From contig JALCQR010000007.1 in NCBI GenBank assembly GCA_022651385.1, positions 1 through 64,000 of the forward strand: a stretch of 64,000 nucleotides of DNA, written 5' to 3'. Origin of the DNA: Clostridia bacterium (GTDB lineage Bacteria > Bacillota > Clostridia > Lachnospirales > Anaerotignaceae). Of the stretch, positions 21,563-43,123 are shown one piece after another. Under the pieces are notes generated by a model that saw nothing but the letters and a program-made list of their open reading frames with translations, made no database searches and was not told where the DNA came from. Position 1 is the first letter of the stretch. The number at the start of each line of letters is the position of its first letter. Position numbers and translations under genes: made by a program.

Positions 21563-21582
21563 TGTTGTTAATTTAATATTTC

Positions 21583-21811
21583 TGGCGATGAGAAGGAATA
21601 GTAGATTTAAAAATTTTTTTCAGAGAGCTGACGTATGGTGAAAGACAGCATTATTTTTATTTCGAACTCGCCTTTGAGCATTATGCTGAAAACTTAAGTA
21701 GGCATAACGTGTAATCTGCGTTAAGGATTTATGAGTGTGTCAAGAAAAGACAAAGTAGAGTGGTACCACGGAAAGTTTCGTCTCTAAAGTTATGAGATGA
21801 ACTTTTTTTTT
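21583..21811 (+). ncRNA. T-box leader, leucine-specific
   Basis: A T-box riboswitch in front of leuS. It begins with GCGATGAGAAGGAATAGTAG (stem I). The specifier region reads CGAACTCGCC with Leu codon CTC at 21667-21669. The antiterminator bulge is TGGTACCACGG at about 21761-21771, with the overlapping terminator AAAGTTTCGTCTC (21772-21784)/GAGATGAACTTT (21794-21805) followed by T. Uncharged tRNA-Leu should pair with the specifier and the TGG(N) bulge to favour antitermination and LeuS synthesis. Confidence 0.93.
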
Positions 21812-31598: not shown

Positions 31599-32354
31599 AT
31601 GGACGTTAGAAAAATACTTGAGAAATGTAAAAACGGTGAGATGTCGATTGATGAAGCTGAGGGAAAACTTAAAGTTGCGCCTTTGCAGGATATCGGCTAT
31701 GCAGTTATAGATCATCAAAGAGAAATGAGAAACGGCTGCCCTGAGGTTATTTACTGTGCCGGAAAAACAAGAGAACAAATAGTAGGCATAATAAGAAATA
31801 TGCTTGCTGCCGGCACAAAAAATATCCTCGGCACAAGAGCGGACAGAGAAAAATATGAAGCGGTAAAAAAAGAATTTGATGACGCTCAATATTTTGATGA
31901 CGCAAAAATTATTAAAATTGAGAGAGAACCTGTGGAAAAAACGGGCGGTATGATACTCGTTGTAACCGGCGGTACAAGCGACATACCCGTTGCTGAGGAA
32001 GCAGCCATTACATGTGAATATTTGGGAAACCATGTTGAAAGATGCTATGATGTAGGAGTTGCCGGTCTTCACAGATTATTATCAAAACTTGATTTGATTG
32101 TGAAAGCTGATGTTATTATCGCAGTTGCCGGAATGGAGGGTGCTCTTGCAAGCGTTGTAGGAGGGCTTACCGATAAGCCTGTAATAGCAGTGCCTACATC
32201 TGTTGGGTATGGAGCAAACTTTAAAGGACTTTCTTCTTTGCTGTGCATGCTCAACAGCTGTGCAAACGGAGTTGTCGTTACAAACATTGATAACGGGTTT
32301 GGCGCAGGATATACGGCAAACAGCATAAATAAATTGGGGGCAAAAAGACGATGA
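31599..32354 (+). CDS. larB: LarB, NaAD carboxylase/hydrolase (nickel-pincer cofactor)
   Basis: A 251-residue PurE-like protein. An N-terminal helical segment (MDVRKILEKCKNGEMSIDEAEGKL) is followed by the PurE-type domain with VVTGGTSDIPVAEEAA, CYDVGVAGLHRLL, IAVAGMEGALASVVGGL and AVPTSVGYGANFKGLSSLLCMLNSC. LarB carboxylates nicotinic acid adenine dinucleotide at C5 and cleaves the phosphoanhydride to give the biscarboxylic precursor. GTGAGGTA precedes ATG 31599; the reading frame is open further upstream, but that overlaps larE. Its stop overlaps the start of larC1 by four bases, a translational-coupling arrangement. Confidence 0.95.
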   Translation: MDVRKILEKCKNGEMSIDEAEGKLKVAPLQDIGYAVIDHQREMRNGCPEVIYCAGKTREQIVGIIRNMLAAGTKNILGTRADREKYEAVKKEFDDAQYFDDAKIIKIEREPVEKTGGMILVVTGGTSDIPVAEEAAITCEYLGNHVERCYDVGVAGLHRLLSKLDLIVKADVIIAVAGMEGALASVVGGLTDKPVIAVPTSVGYGANFKGLSSLLCMLNSCANGVVVTNIDNGFGAGYTANSINKLGAKRR

Positions 32355-33214
32355 GAACATTATATTTTGACTGTTTTTCAGGTATAAGCGGAGATATGAC
32401 AATAGGAGCTCTTCTTGACCTTGGAATTGACGGAGTAGACAAAGATACTTTTTTAAACGAGCTTTCAAAGATAAATGTTGACGGATTTAAAGTCGAGTTT
32501 TCAAGAGCTGAAAAACTTGGAATCGGTGCTCAGGATGTGGACGTAGTGCTTACAAACGGGGAGATGAAAGACGCCGGATGCGCTAATGGACTGGAACATC
32601 ACCATGATCATGATAACCACGACCATGAAGAGCATGACCATGACCATCATCATGACCACGAGGGACATTCTCACGAGCATCATCACGCACATGTACACCG
32701 CAATATTAATGATGTTACTACGATTATTGATAACAGCACTATTTCAGACGGAGCAAAAGATTTGGCAAAAAGAATATTTATGCGTGTGGCAAAAGCAGAA
32801 TCCAAAGTTCACGGCAAACCTCTTGAGGAAGTGCATTTCCACGAGGTAGGAGCTCTTGACTCAATTGTCGATATCATTGGGACAGCTATACTTATTGATA
32901 TGATTAAGCCTGACAGAATATGCTCGTCCGTTGTAAATGACGGATACGGCTTTATACTTTGCCAGCATGGACATATGCCGGTTCCTGTACCGGCAACGGC
33001 AGAGATATATGCTGATTCAAATATAAAATATCGTCAGGTTGATGTAAAAAATGAAATGGTTACACCTACGGGAGCTGCGATTATCGCTGAGCTTTCCGAC
33101 AGTTTTGGAATGTGCCCGGCTATGAATGTGGTCAAAACAGGCTACGGTGCCGGAAAACGTGATTTTGCCATACCTAATGTTTTAAGAGTAATTCTTGGCG
33201 AAACAGAGGAGTGA
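32351..33214 (+). CDS. larC: LarC N-terminal part (LarC1), nickel insertion
   Basis: 287 residues corresponding to the N-terminal part of LarC, the CTP-dependent nickel insertase. It opens with TLYFDCFSGISGDMTIGALLDLG and has a histidine-rich stretch at about 78-116 (more than 15 His, with Asp/Glu), a likely nickel store. FHEVGALDSIVDIIGTAI, NDGYGFILCQHGHMPVPVPAT and VTPTGAAI follow. The frame ends with TGA at 33212-33214, while the C-terminal part continues in the -1 frame. In Lactobacillus plantarum LarC is made whole by ribosomal frameshifting between larC1 and larC2, and a similar arrangement seems likely here. Confidence 0.92.
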   Translation: MRTLYFDCFSGISGDMTIGALLDLGIDGVDKDTFLNELSKINVDGFKVEFSRAEKLGIGAQDVDVVLTNGEMKDAGCANGLEHHHDHDNHDHEEHDHDHHHDHEGHSHEHHHAHVHRNINDVTTIIDNSTISDGAKDLAKRIFMRVAKAESKVHGKPLEEVHFHEVGALDSIVDIIGTAILIDMIKPDRICSSVVNDGYGFILCQHGHMPVPVPATAEIYADSNIKYRQVDVKNEMVTPTGAAIIAELSDSFGMCPAMNVVKTGYGAGKRDFAIPNVLRVILGETEE

Positions 33215-33657
33215 CAGTAATTAGCAAATACAGTGACGAAATACTTGTACTTGAAACAAATATTGATGACAGCTCTGGAGAAATGCTTGGTTTTGTTCTT
33301 GAAAGACTTTTTAAAGAGGGAGCAAAAGATGCGTTTTTTACTTCTATATACATGAAAAAAAACAGACCTGCTTATAAGCTAACCGTTTTATGCGATAAAA
33401 GCAAAAAAGAGGCTATGGAAAATATTATATTTGAGGAGACTACTGCTATAGGAATACGATACAGACTTGAAAAAAGGACATGCCTTGACCGATGTTTAGA
33501 TGAGTTTGATACGTGTTACGGGAAAATAAAAGTCAAATGTGTCGAAACAAACAAGGGACTTAAGGTATATCCTGAATACGAAAGCGCGCGTCATGCCGCA
33601 GAGAAATTTTCCGTTCCTCTTTCATATGTATATCAGGCTGTTAAAAACTATAAGTGA
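33211..33657 (+). CDS. larC: LarC C-terminal part (LarC2), in the -1 frame
   Basis: 148 residues matching the C-terminal LarC domain: LETNIDDSSGEMLGFVLERLFKEGAKDAFFTSIYMKKNRPAYKL-type sequence and EETTAIGIRYRLEKRTCL. The frame is open back to 33178 and could start with GTG 33211, whose G is four bases before the end of larC1. Its AGAGGA ribosome site would be adjacent to that GTG with almost no spacing, so independent initiation looks poor. Expression as a -1 frameshift product with larC1 is the better explanation. No canonical X-XXY-YYZ heptamer was found in the 33178-33214 overlap. Confidence 0.85.
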   Translation: MTVISKYSDEILVLETNIDDSSGEMLGFVLERLFKEGAKDAFFTSIYMKKNRPAYKLTVLCDKSKKEAMENIIFEETTAIGIRYRLEKRTCLDRCLDEFDTCYGKIKVKCVETNKGLKVYPEYESARHAAEKFSVPLSYVYQAVKNYK

Positions 33658-36501: not shown

Positions 36502-36537
36502 AGGTTCTGTTTTAATTTTTAAGACAGAACCTTTTTT
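36502..36537 (+). terminator. terminator after the M23 peptidase gene
   Basis: AGGTTCTGT (36502-36510) pairs with ACAGAACCT (36524-36532), followed by six T. Confidence 0.87.
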
Positions 36538-36796
36538 ACTTTGTTTATGTAATTTATGTATTTTAATATACATAAAATACTTTAAGCTCATATAATGTGT
36601 TTGCCGTGTATATTTTGTTACAAGCTGAATTATTCTGTTTTTTTGTTAAACAGATAGATACCACTAAAGCGCAATATTAACTTATTATCTGAATTGCAAA
36701 TACACCAATGAAACATTAATAAGATAGTATAAACAAATAAGTTGATATTGGCAGGCTTATGAAAGATATTCATAGGTCAAAGGAGTGAATTATTTT
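36538..36796 (+). promoter_or_regulatory. AT-rich upstream region of the GGDEF regulator with two palindromes
   Basis: A possible promoter is TTGCAA (36694-36699), 17 bases, TAATAA (36717-36722). Two inverted repeats stand out: TTTATGTA/TACATAAA (36553-36576, eight-base loop) and TATGAA-AGATA-TTCATA (36758-36774), which lies between the presumed start and the ribosome site. The second could be an autoregulatory operator for the downstream SARP-like domain; this is a guess. Nothing else was recognised. Confidence 0.35.
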
Positions 36797-39082
36797 ATGA
36801 AAACTATTATCATAGACGAAAATGTTTTTATACTGGAGCAATTCGCTGATAAGTGTGCAGATATTAAGGAAATTCAGCTTATAGGAGATTTTAATAGTTA
36901 TTCCGATTCATTGAATTTTATTAAAAATAATAATGTTGAGCTTGTTTTTTTGGCCGATGATTTAGCTGAAATTAACAGTAATATTCTCGCTCGGCGTTTT
37001 AAGGAAATTTATCCTGAAATTATAATTATATTTATTTCACAAAATATTAAGTTTTTTAAATCTCAGAATAATATTAATAATTATTATGTTCTTGAATCAA
37101 ATACTCCTGACGAAATTGAGTCGGCAGTAAACAGAGCAATATTTTTAACGAAAGAAATAAAAAACTCAATATATATAAGAACATTCGGAGACTTTGACAT
37201 TTTTATTCATAATACTCCGGTTAAATTTGAAAATTCAAATGCAAAACAATTTTTGGCTGTCATTGTTGACAGTCTTGGAGAAGAACTAAAATCGAGAGAA
37301 ATATGTAATATTCTTTTTCCAGATGAAAGTGAAATCAATCAACTAATGTATTATAATAAAGCATTAAGAGAACTAAAATTTACACTTAAAAAATATAACA
37401 TTAATGATTTAATTTGTTATTCAAATAAAGGATGTAAAATAAATACAAAAAAATTAAACTGCGATTTATTTATGTTTTTAGATGGGGACTTAAATGCTAT
37501 ACGTTCGTTTAATAACTCATATATGAATGGCTATCAGTGGGGGAAAAAAACGTTTGAAATGCTTAAGCGCCAGAAACAAATGTTTGAAAGTTATAGTGAC
37601 GGCATGACAAAAAACACAATATGTGCCAGTATTAGATGTGCTCTTGACAGTAGATTAACTATTGTATATGCTAACGAAAGTTTTCTTGCTATTACTGGAT
37701 ATTGTAGAGAGGACATGTATGAGCTGCTTTCCAACAGCTTTAAAGAACTGGTGTTTGAAAATGACAGAGAAATGCTTATGAATGCCGTGTACAGCAATGG
37801 AAAATTAGGAAAAACAAAAGAAATTGACTTGAGACTTAAGTGTAAAAGCGGCAGCCTTATTTGGGTTATGAGCAAGGGAGAAATAATAAAGTGGCAAAAT
37901 ATAACAGGAGAAGATTCCGAATGGGAAACACTTCTTATCGATATATCAAATAGAAAGGCAGACCAGCTTGCGCTTAAAGACCAGGCTCAAAGAGATGCAC
38001 TTACAAGGCTTTACAACAGAAGCACTGGAAAAGATATGATAGACAATTATTTATCAAAAGAAGGCAGAGATAAAAAATCGGCGCTGATAATTTTGGATGT
38101 TGATAATTTTAAAGCAATAAATGATACGTATGGTCATCCGTTTGCCGATACTGTACTTACAGATATAGCGTCAATTCTTACTCATATTTATAGAACTTCC
38201 GATATAATAAGCAGAATCGGCGGAGATGAAATGATGATTTTTATAAAAAACATACCGTCAGATGAATTTCTTGTGGATAAAATTAATAAAACTGTAGAAA
38301 TTTTATATGAAAAGCTTAATTTAAAAACTAAGTACGGAGAATTGTCATGCAGCTTGGGTGTTGCAGTATATCCGTCTGATGCCGATAGCTTCGAGAACTT
38401 ATATTCATGTGCAGACAAGGCTTTGTATTGCTCAAAGAAGAAAGGTAAGTGCCAAGCAACAGTTTATAAAAACATCGACTATGAAGATATAAATAAAATG
38501 CCGGCATCAATTGTAAAAGAAAGCTGTATGATAAAAGAAAACAGTATTATGTGTTATGCATTTAACCATTTATACGGTAATCCCGATTTGTATGCTTCAA
38601 TAAATTCTGTACTTCATGCAGTTGGCAAAATGCTTGATATAAGCAGAGTTTATATTTTTGAGGATACTGATGACAGAAAGTACACAGTCAACACATTTGA
38701 GTGGTGTGCTGAGGGAATATGTTCTGAAAAAAACAGTATGCAGAAGCTTCCAAGACATATATTTAAAAATTATTATAAAAACATTGAGGAAAACGGCGGG
38801 CTATTGTACTGCTGTGATTTTGAAAAACTTCCGCTTCAGATTTATAAAACATTGAAGTTACAAGGTGTAAAATCAATAATACATTGTGAGTTAAAAGATG
38901 AAAATAAATGTTTTGGATTTGTGGGTTTTGACGAGTGTAAAGAAAAGCGCTTTTGGAATTGGCAGCAGGTTAAATCACTGTTGGAACTGACAAGAGTTAT
39001 AAGTGTATTTTTAAGAAAGTACCGTTTGCAGCATGGATGTACACTTGAAAAACTTCAAAGCAATATACATGAAATGAACTAA
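36797..39082 (+). CDS. degenerate receiver / SARP-like / PAS / GGDEF / GAF regulatory protein
   Basis: A 761-residue cytoplasmic signalling protein. Residues 1-115 resemble a receiver (TIIIDENVF...VELVFLADDLAEINS), but the phosphoacceptor Asp aligns with Ala53 and the beta-5 Lys is missing. About 127-250 is a winged-helix/SARP-like segment (FGDFDIFIHNTPVKFENSNA, REICNILFPDE). About 270-390 is a PAS domain. About 395-555 is a GGDEF domain with GGDEM (475-479) and an RxxD inhibitory site (466-469), so it probably makes cyclic di-GMP under feedback control. About 580-750 is GAF-like. ATG 36797 fits better than GTG 36785. It is a single-gene unit with its own terminator. Confidence 0.75.
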   Translation: MKTIIIDENVFILEQFADKCADIKEIQLIGDFNSYSDSLNFIKNNNVELVFLADDLAEINSNILARRFKEIYPEIIIIFISQNIKFFKSQNNINNYYVLESNTPDEIESAVNRAIFLTKEIKNSIYIRTFGDFDIFIHNTPVKFENSNAKQFLAVIVDSLGEELKSREICNILFPDESEINQLMYYNKALRELKFTLKKYNINDLICYSNKGCKINTKKLNCDLFMFLDGDLNAIRSFNNSYMNGYQWGKKTFEMLKRQKQMFESYSDGMTKNTICASIRCALDSRLTIVYANESFLAITGYCREDMYELLSNSFKELVFENDREMLMNAVYSNGKLGKTKEIDLRLKCKSGSLIWVMSKGEIIKWQNITGEDSEWETLLIDISNRKADQLALKDQAQRDALTRLYNRSTGKDMIDNYLSKEGRDKKSALIILDVDNFKAINDTYGHPFADTVLTDIASILTHIYRTSDIISRIGGDEMMIFIKNIPSDEFLVDKINKTVEILYEKLNLKTKYGELSCSLGVAVYPSDADSFENLYSCADKALYCSKKKGKCQATVYKNIDYEDINKMPASIVKESCMIKENSIMCYAFNHLYGNPDLYASINSVLHAVGKMLDISRVYIFEDTDDRKYTVNTFEWCAEGICSEKNSMQKLPRHIFKNYYKNIEENGGLLYCCDFEKLPLQIYKTLKLQGVKSIIHCELKDENKCFGFVGFDECKEKRFWNWQQVKSLLELTRVISVFLRKYRLQHGCTLEKLQSNIHEMN

Positions 39083-42850: not shown

Positions 42851-42875
42851 AAACACATAAATCGTTTAAAAGCTA

Positions 42876-43123
42876 TGATGGCGTAAAGTAGGAGTTATGT
42901 TTAGTCAAAAGAGAGAAAATGTCACGGCTGAAAGCATTTTTTGACTTAATGACTGCGAATTTTCCCGCCGGAGCCGGTTTTCTGAAATTAAGTAGGAAAG
43001 CACGTTAATGCACGTTACGTACAAAGGCTTGTAAGAGCTATGAGTGTCTGTTTTTTAAACAGAAATTTGGGTGGTACCACGAAATTTTGCCTTCGTCCCT
43101 ATATTGGCGGCGAAGGCTTTTTT
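42876..43123 (+). ncRNA. T-box leader, phenylalanine-specific
   Basis: A T-box riboswitch in front of pheST. The specifier region reads GCGAATTTTCCCGCC, containing Phe codons TTT (42960-42962) or TTC (42962-42964); the analogous leuS leader has CGAA then CTC. CTGAAATTAAGTAGG is shared with the leuS leader. The antiterminator element is GTGGTACCACG (43071-43081), followed by the terminator GCCTTCG (43089-43095)/CGAAGGC (43111-43117) and T. Uncharged tRNA-Phe should cause antitermination. Confidence 0.93.

Follow-up and report, generated by a model that had tools for sequence, protein, structure and literature searches.

Can a single protein chain couple cyclic di-GMP (c-di-GMP) production to direct control of transcription, independently of a histidine kinase? 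The question is raised by a gene in the window, the 64,000-nt stretch of a Clostridia bacterium contig (JALCQR010000007.1) analyzed here. A preliminary description of this DNA had read the gene product as a receiver without phosphosite, followed by a SARP-like DNA-binding domain, PAS, GGDEF and GAF.

Domain architecture of the protein

The gene starts with an ATG at 36797, with AAAGGAG 5′ to it, and its stop codon ends at 39082:

36797..39082, + strand: 761-aa protein with Asp-less receiver, winged helix, PAS, GGDEF and GAF; single unbroken ORF

A Pfam search of the 761-aa protein matched GGDEF and PAS; receiver, winged helix and GAF were not called. Leave-one-out profiles, built from relatives with the window protein excluded (Z = 100,000), recovered the domains missed by Pfam: the receiver at residues 1-114 (i-E 5.5e-15), the winged helix at residues 125-259 (E 2.9e-33), both jointly (E 1.5e-55) and GAF at residues 581-742 (E 7.6e-35). 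Hence the five-domain reading, REC-wHTH-PAS-GGDEF-GAF, is correct, well beyond chance, and the domain order of the preliminary description was upheld. Each domain is ordinary. The order, built from known parts, is unique within the collections searched.

A receiver without phosphoacceptor

The N-terminal part comprises the following features:

36797..37159, + strand: degenerate receiver, residues 1-121 (leave-one-out E 5.5e-15; AlphaFold (beta-alpha)5; 2qv0 with TM 0.83 by target length)
36953..36955, + strand: Ala53 codon, phosphoacceptor position

A structure check had been proposed for residues 1-260. Our AlphaFold model of residues 1-266 (alignment of 40 rows; mean pLDDT 93.5) showed an OmpR/PhoB-type winged helix behind a complete (beta-alpha)5 receiver. 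Foldseek matched it to full-length OmpR/PhoB regulators, some of which (CosR, 2hqr and RitR) act independently of phosphorylation. Strand beta3 covers residues 49-53 and ends with Ala53, at the place of the acceptor; this residue aligned with the Asp of 2qv0, and Asp occupies the position in 39 of 44 aligned relatives, as expected from the claim that Ala53 replaces the acceptor. The claimed change of Lys-Pro to Glu-Ser was equally evident, Glu100-Ser101 standing where Lys and Pro are each found in 41 of 45 rows. The protein has the receiver fold of a response regulator, with Ala53 and Glu100 instead of the acceptor Asp and the conserved Lys. A receiver fold that lacks the acceptor Asp and is joined to an output domain places it among aspartate-less receivers.

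Two aspartates, D54 and D55, adjoin the acceptor position, and through one of them an unlinked kinase might still drive the protein as a response regulator. We regard this as most improbable. In 42 of 45 rows the residue at position 54 is Ile or Val, position 55 is mostly Glu, Asp or Asn among aligned relatives and it is Ala53 that aligns with Asp, so that the structure model and the 45-row alignment rule out both residues as phosphoacceptor. The replacement of Lys100 by Glu and of Pro101 by Ser also speaks against it, as does the lack of a kinase nearby: the window ORF list contains no histidine-kinase neighbour, the gene lying among small membrane-protein ORFs and one for an M23-type peptidase. 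Absence of Asp, Lys and a kinase neighbour fits the earlier proposal of independence from a histidine kinase. Among the relatives examined, 27 of 41 had a LytS-type kinase motif within the short flank fetched.

Degraded receivers were also observed in further stand-alone receiver-wHTH proteins, one carrying Ser at the acceptor place (L091:1129-1920) and another lacking the conserved Lys (L092:1486-2253).

An OmpR/PhoB-type winged helix with a short cap

The receiver is followed by:

37166..37459, + strand: OmpR/PhoB-type winged helix, residues 124-221 (leave-one-out E 2.9e-33; topology b-b-H-H-H-b-b; relatives score above or right at the Pfam Trans_reg_C cut-off)
37460..37591, + strand: C-terminal cap, residues 222-265, CD...YM..Y.W, a stub instead of BTAD, common to stand-alone relatives

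Residues 127-250, previously suspected to be a DNA-binding fold, form a winged helix according to both model and profile. In the model the recognition helix extends over residues 179-199 and the wing over 206-215, and the cap forms three helices (223-228, 232-237 and 247-265). No BTAD was found after the winged helix by Pfam or AlphaFold; a 44-residue stub precedes the PAS domain. Of the term ‘SARP-like’, the OmpR-type winged helix stood and the rest did not: with no BTAD, membership in the SARPs of AfsR/DnrI type is ruled out and ‘SARP’ expresses a mere likeness of the winged helix. Since BTAD is absent and the cap is also conserved in stand-alone relatives, the term should be dropped, and BTAD-less SAPR-type regulator is the better label.

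The receiver-winged-helix half might be a decayed leftover on an ordinary diguanylate cyclase, serving dimerisation at most. Indeed only 7 of 17 family-conserved positions remain in the receiver and 16 of 23 in the winged helix, the lowest winged-helix value of 40 compared, and relatives exist in which the PAS-GGDEF-GAF part occurs alone. However, the winged-helix fold was predicted at very high confidence with wing and recognition helix complete, and of its seven losses the C-terminal stub accounts for four, the other three being mild, conservative changes of the core. The ORF, moreover, is full-length and without frame damage, which disfavors decay. Taken together, we find a leftover quite unlikely.

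Relatives of the winged helix

Winged-helix profile surveys covered the family, order, class and phylum of the window and one further order. Profile A1 was too loose for the collection scan and the tighter A5 was used; in named genomes, tblastn detected at least 450 relatives, 80 of which were taken. Typical profile matches were receiver-winged-helix response regulators of Clostridia of ~260 aa. We sorted 135 distinct winged-helix cores (window excluded) by domain order: 46 were REC-wHTH, 72 had a long N-terminus before the winged helix (those run through Pfam carried PAS repeats), eight carried GGDEF before the winged helix and nine had short N-termini. The REC-wHTH-PAS-GGDEF-GAF order was found in the window only and in none of these 135 cores, so that the search through other Clostridia yielded no second case among the relatives examined. 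Similarly, a scan of genome contigs with the full-length protein gave no relatives, and no equivalent was described in the literature on SARP or winged helix with GGDEF that we covered, which included few subscription papers. The earlier statement that no such system is described holds, within the collections and papers covered, for the exact five-domain order, but Asp-less receivers, PdeL and opposite-order wHTH/GGDEF joins exist.

The surveys also brought up a large unnamed one-component family of PASn-wHTH and PASn-GGDEF-wHTH proteins, mostly from gut Clostridia (L102-L112, L147-L226), with examples in Butyricicoccus pullicaecorum (L149:2072-4426), Clostridium porci (L150:1832-4414) and an Atopobiaceae MAG (L190). 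Its winged helix was missed by Pfam in several members. Where GGDEF lies ahead of the winged helix (L102, L103, L111, L112, L149, L150, L151, L225), the I-site Arg is absent from most proteins, and the active site is degraded in several of them (EGDNF, GEDEF, SGTRF), as if, from their sequences, the enzyme were turning into a sensor. Winged-helix proteins of a further kind, of ~300 aa (L065:1000-1917, L074:1042-1929), have an N-terminal domain that is not a receiver, with a PAS-like end RDISLQEKY; both genes adjoin a glycosyltransferase-like gene.

PAS, GGDEF and GAF domains

The C-terminal half contains:

37637..37966, + strand: PAS, residues about 281-390 (PAS_3 E 7e-10; S-box domain model E 8e-8)
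37985..38449, + strand: GGDEF, residues 397-551 (Pfam E 5e-38; modelled as a GGDEF fold, closest to solved cyclase structures)
38192..38203, + strand: I-site RTSD, residues 466-469 (sequence; alignment with relatives)
38219..38233, + strand: active-site motif GGDEM, residues 475-479 (sequence; GGDEF in 6 of 6 aligned PAS-GGDEF-GAF relatives)
38516..39034, + strand: GAF, residues about 574-746 (leave-one-out E 7.6e-35; secondary structure fits)

A second AlphaFold model strongly supported the GGDEF and moderately the GAF tail; its PAS part was poor (shallow alignment). The GAF-like tail of the preliminary description proved to be GAF by the profile and by matches to Pfam GAF families in 10 of 11 aligned members, and the I-site and GGDEM motifs were present as claimed. 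The GGDEF domain retained DVDNFKAIND, GH...D, GGDE, K..GK and the I-site RTSD, and departed from the usual residues by M for F (GGDEM) and by A for G in GHxxGD (GHPFAD). Cyclase activity is plausible because GGDE, the metal/GTP-site DxD..K..ND, the D of GHxxGD and K..GK are present; GGDEM and the Ala in GHxxGD could nevertheless lower or abolish it.

These departures, beside a perfect I-site, would also suit a c-di-GMP- or GTP-responsive transcription factor, in which the GGDEF would be an I-site sensor rather than an effective cyclase and would set DNA binding. Degenerate GGDEF effectors are established (PMC5052742), and the frequently degraded active sites of the cousins with C-terminal winged helix suggest that catalysis tends to be lost in GGDEFs joined to this winged helix. 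On the other hand, the catalytic residues named above are all present in the window protein, and those cousins show the reverse, most being without the I-site Arg. On balance we consider a pure sensor doubtful.

Origin of the fusion

Among collected sequences, the GGDEF scored best against proteins that share the PAS-GGDEF-GAF order (L121, 131.6 bits); GGDEFs already joined to this winged helix came lower (L013, 92.7 bits). With these scores, a common origin with the opposite-order wHTH-GGDEF joins is not favoured. As the GGDEF is nearest to PAS-GGDEF-GAF proteins and the two halves have different nearest relatives, we infer that a stand-alone receiver-wHTH regulator was fused to a PAS-GGDEF-GAF protein, the phosphosite being lost at some point. 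In the winged-helix tree, the window protein lay near the base of a branch with C-terminal fusions and some degenerate receivers, a place that is unsure because its own branch is long (1.61). The view of the winged-helix/GGDEF join as a unique invention of this genome is softened by the opposite-order joins in other Clostridia.

Promoter region and genome context

Two features lie upstream of the gene:

36502..36532, + strand: intrinsic terminator of the upstream gene
36672..36750, no strand: candidate operator ahead of the ATG, an inverted repeat (CAATATTAACTTATT / AATAAGTTGATATTG) with arms at 36672-36686 and 36736-36750, separated by 49 nt and pairing at 14 of 15 positions

The regulator gene is solitary, and since the terminator of the upstream gene precedes it, it probably has its own promoter. 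Pairing of 14/15 was reached in 1 of 150 shuffles of the region, and the exact motif of the inverted repeat occurred nowhere else in the 2.6 Mb genome beyond these two arms. The repeat was picked post hoc in a region of 25% GC, and we hence take it as a lead only, a candidate operator. No regulon was seen in the genome by way of the motif: one of seven one-mismatch sites was clearly just upstream of an ORF, and the others were mostly within genes or had no clear position upstream of one. There was no riboswitch before the regulator gene, and the window holds no c-di-GMP riboswitch, only two T-box leaders (21579-21788 and 42866-43103, + strand), the second directly before a pheS-like gene.

Elsewhere in the genome, the c-di-GMP network includes further GGDEF loci, four EAL matches and one c-di-GMP-I riboswitch (G000:C9:78118-78205, L228). 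Downstream of the latter lie a TadE-like ORF and an ORF that we take, by reading of its sequence, to be prepilin-peptidase-like, which suggests c-di-GMP control of Tad-type pili in the same genome.

Another gene of the window, LarC-like (32351-33657, + strand), consists of two ORFs (287 and 148 aa) with a 4-nt overlap and a His-rich stretch. Programmed frameshifting, known from other LarC proteins, could yield LarC from these two.

Proposed mechanism

By fold and homology, a DNA-binding domain and a c-di-GMP enzyme domain stand in one chain, which is one mark of a ‘trigger enzyme’ of the PdeL kind; for the other, promoter binding that changes with ligand or turnover, the upstream inverted repeat is a candidate site. 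We infer that c-di-GMP production may in this way be coupled to direct transcription control. Evenly poised, in our judgement, is the reading of the protein as a soluble kinase-independent regulator, in which a cyclase with I-site feedback would be combined with a winged helix acting on DNA, perhaps at its own promoter. The receiver would serve as a platform for dimerisation and control without phosphorylation, and PAS and GAF as input domains. The GGDEF would make c-di-GMP and be product-inhibited through RTSD, and the dimer state that joins GGDEFs or I-sites would also set DNA binding by the winged helix, whose targets would probably include its own promoter. Against this reading stand GGDEM and the Ala in GHxxGD, a winged helix more divergent than any other of the 40 compared, and the failure to find a regulon with the motif or another species with this domain order. 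The whole protein would then be the cyclase counterpart of a PdeL-type ‘trigger enzyme’. The stricter version is somewhat unlikely: here the diguanylate cyclase would itself be the transcription factor at its own promoter, c-di-GMP at its own I-site would switch DNA binding and the protein, with its non-phosphorylated receiver, would mirror PdeL on the synthesis side.

Repeated fusions of its family to PAS and GGDEF in other proteins suggest that this winged helix can be the output module of proteins that have no phosphorylatable receiver. With dead receiver, DNA-binding and c-di-GMP-making domains joined, both signal level and gene expression may be changed directly. If this is true, c-di-GMP synthesis and transcription control joined in cis would constitute a single-gene feedback switch. 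More broadly, our survey revealed two layouts in which one winged-helix family is combined with PAS and c-di-GMP domains, and thus this family, poorly recognised by current domain libraries, could be a general kinase-free route from internal signals to transcription in gut Clostridia. Beyond the window gene itself, the larger result is how extensive the surrounding unnamed PAS/GGDEF-winged-helix family is.

Comparison with known systems

The closest family is that of the stand-alone REC-wHTH regulators of Clostridia (~260 aa, BTAD-less, SAPR/COG3947-type relatives), homologous over residues 1-262 and with the same winged helix and CD...YM..YSW cap. Unlike the window protein, they retain Lys-Pro and the acceptor Asp, are often encoded next to a LytS-like kinase (PF06580) and stop after the winged helix, where the window protein adds PAS-GGDEF-GAF. 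PASn-wHTH and PASn-GGDEF-wHTH proteins join a winged helix of the same family to PAS and sometimes GGDEF, but theirs is C-terminal, with no receiver and mostly no I-site Arg, and their GGDEF, often degraded in its active site, is not the nearest relative of that of the window.

Aspartate-less receivers are an established class, reported to be enriched with GGDEF outputs (PMC4395418). RitR, ChxR and HP1043-type regulators likewise have no acceptor Asp, an OmpR-type winged helix and phosphorylation-independent action; however, those whose structures have been studied stop at the winged helix, with no cyclase in the chain. PleD and WspR share the N-terminal receiver and a GGDEF with I-site (PMC2270323 for WspR), but have no DNA-binding domain, and their receivers respond to phosphorylation. 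The PucR-type regulator MabR combines a GGDEF-type fold with an HTH (PMC11617747); it differs in a GGDEF without A-site and I-site motifs, another HTH and no receiver.

E. coli PdeL (HTH-EAL), an autoregulating c-di-GMP enzyme, recognizes an imperfect palindrome located upstream of the pdeL gene (PMC5052742). It has in common with the window protein a DNA-binding domain and a c-di-GMP enzyme in one chain, but it degrades c-di-GMP (‘trigger phosphodiesterase’) and its LuxR-type HTH belongs to another DNA-binding family. By analogy, the window protein functionally resembles a diguanylate-cyclase counterpart of PdeL.
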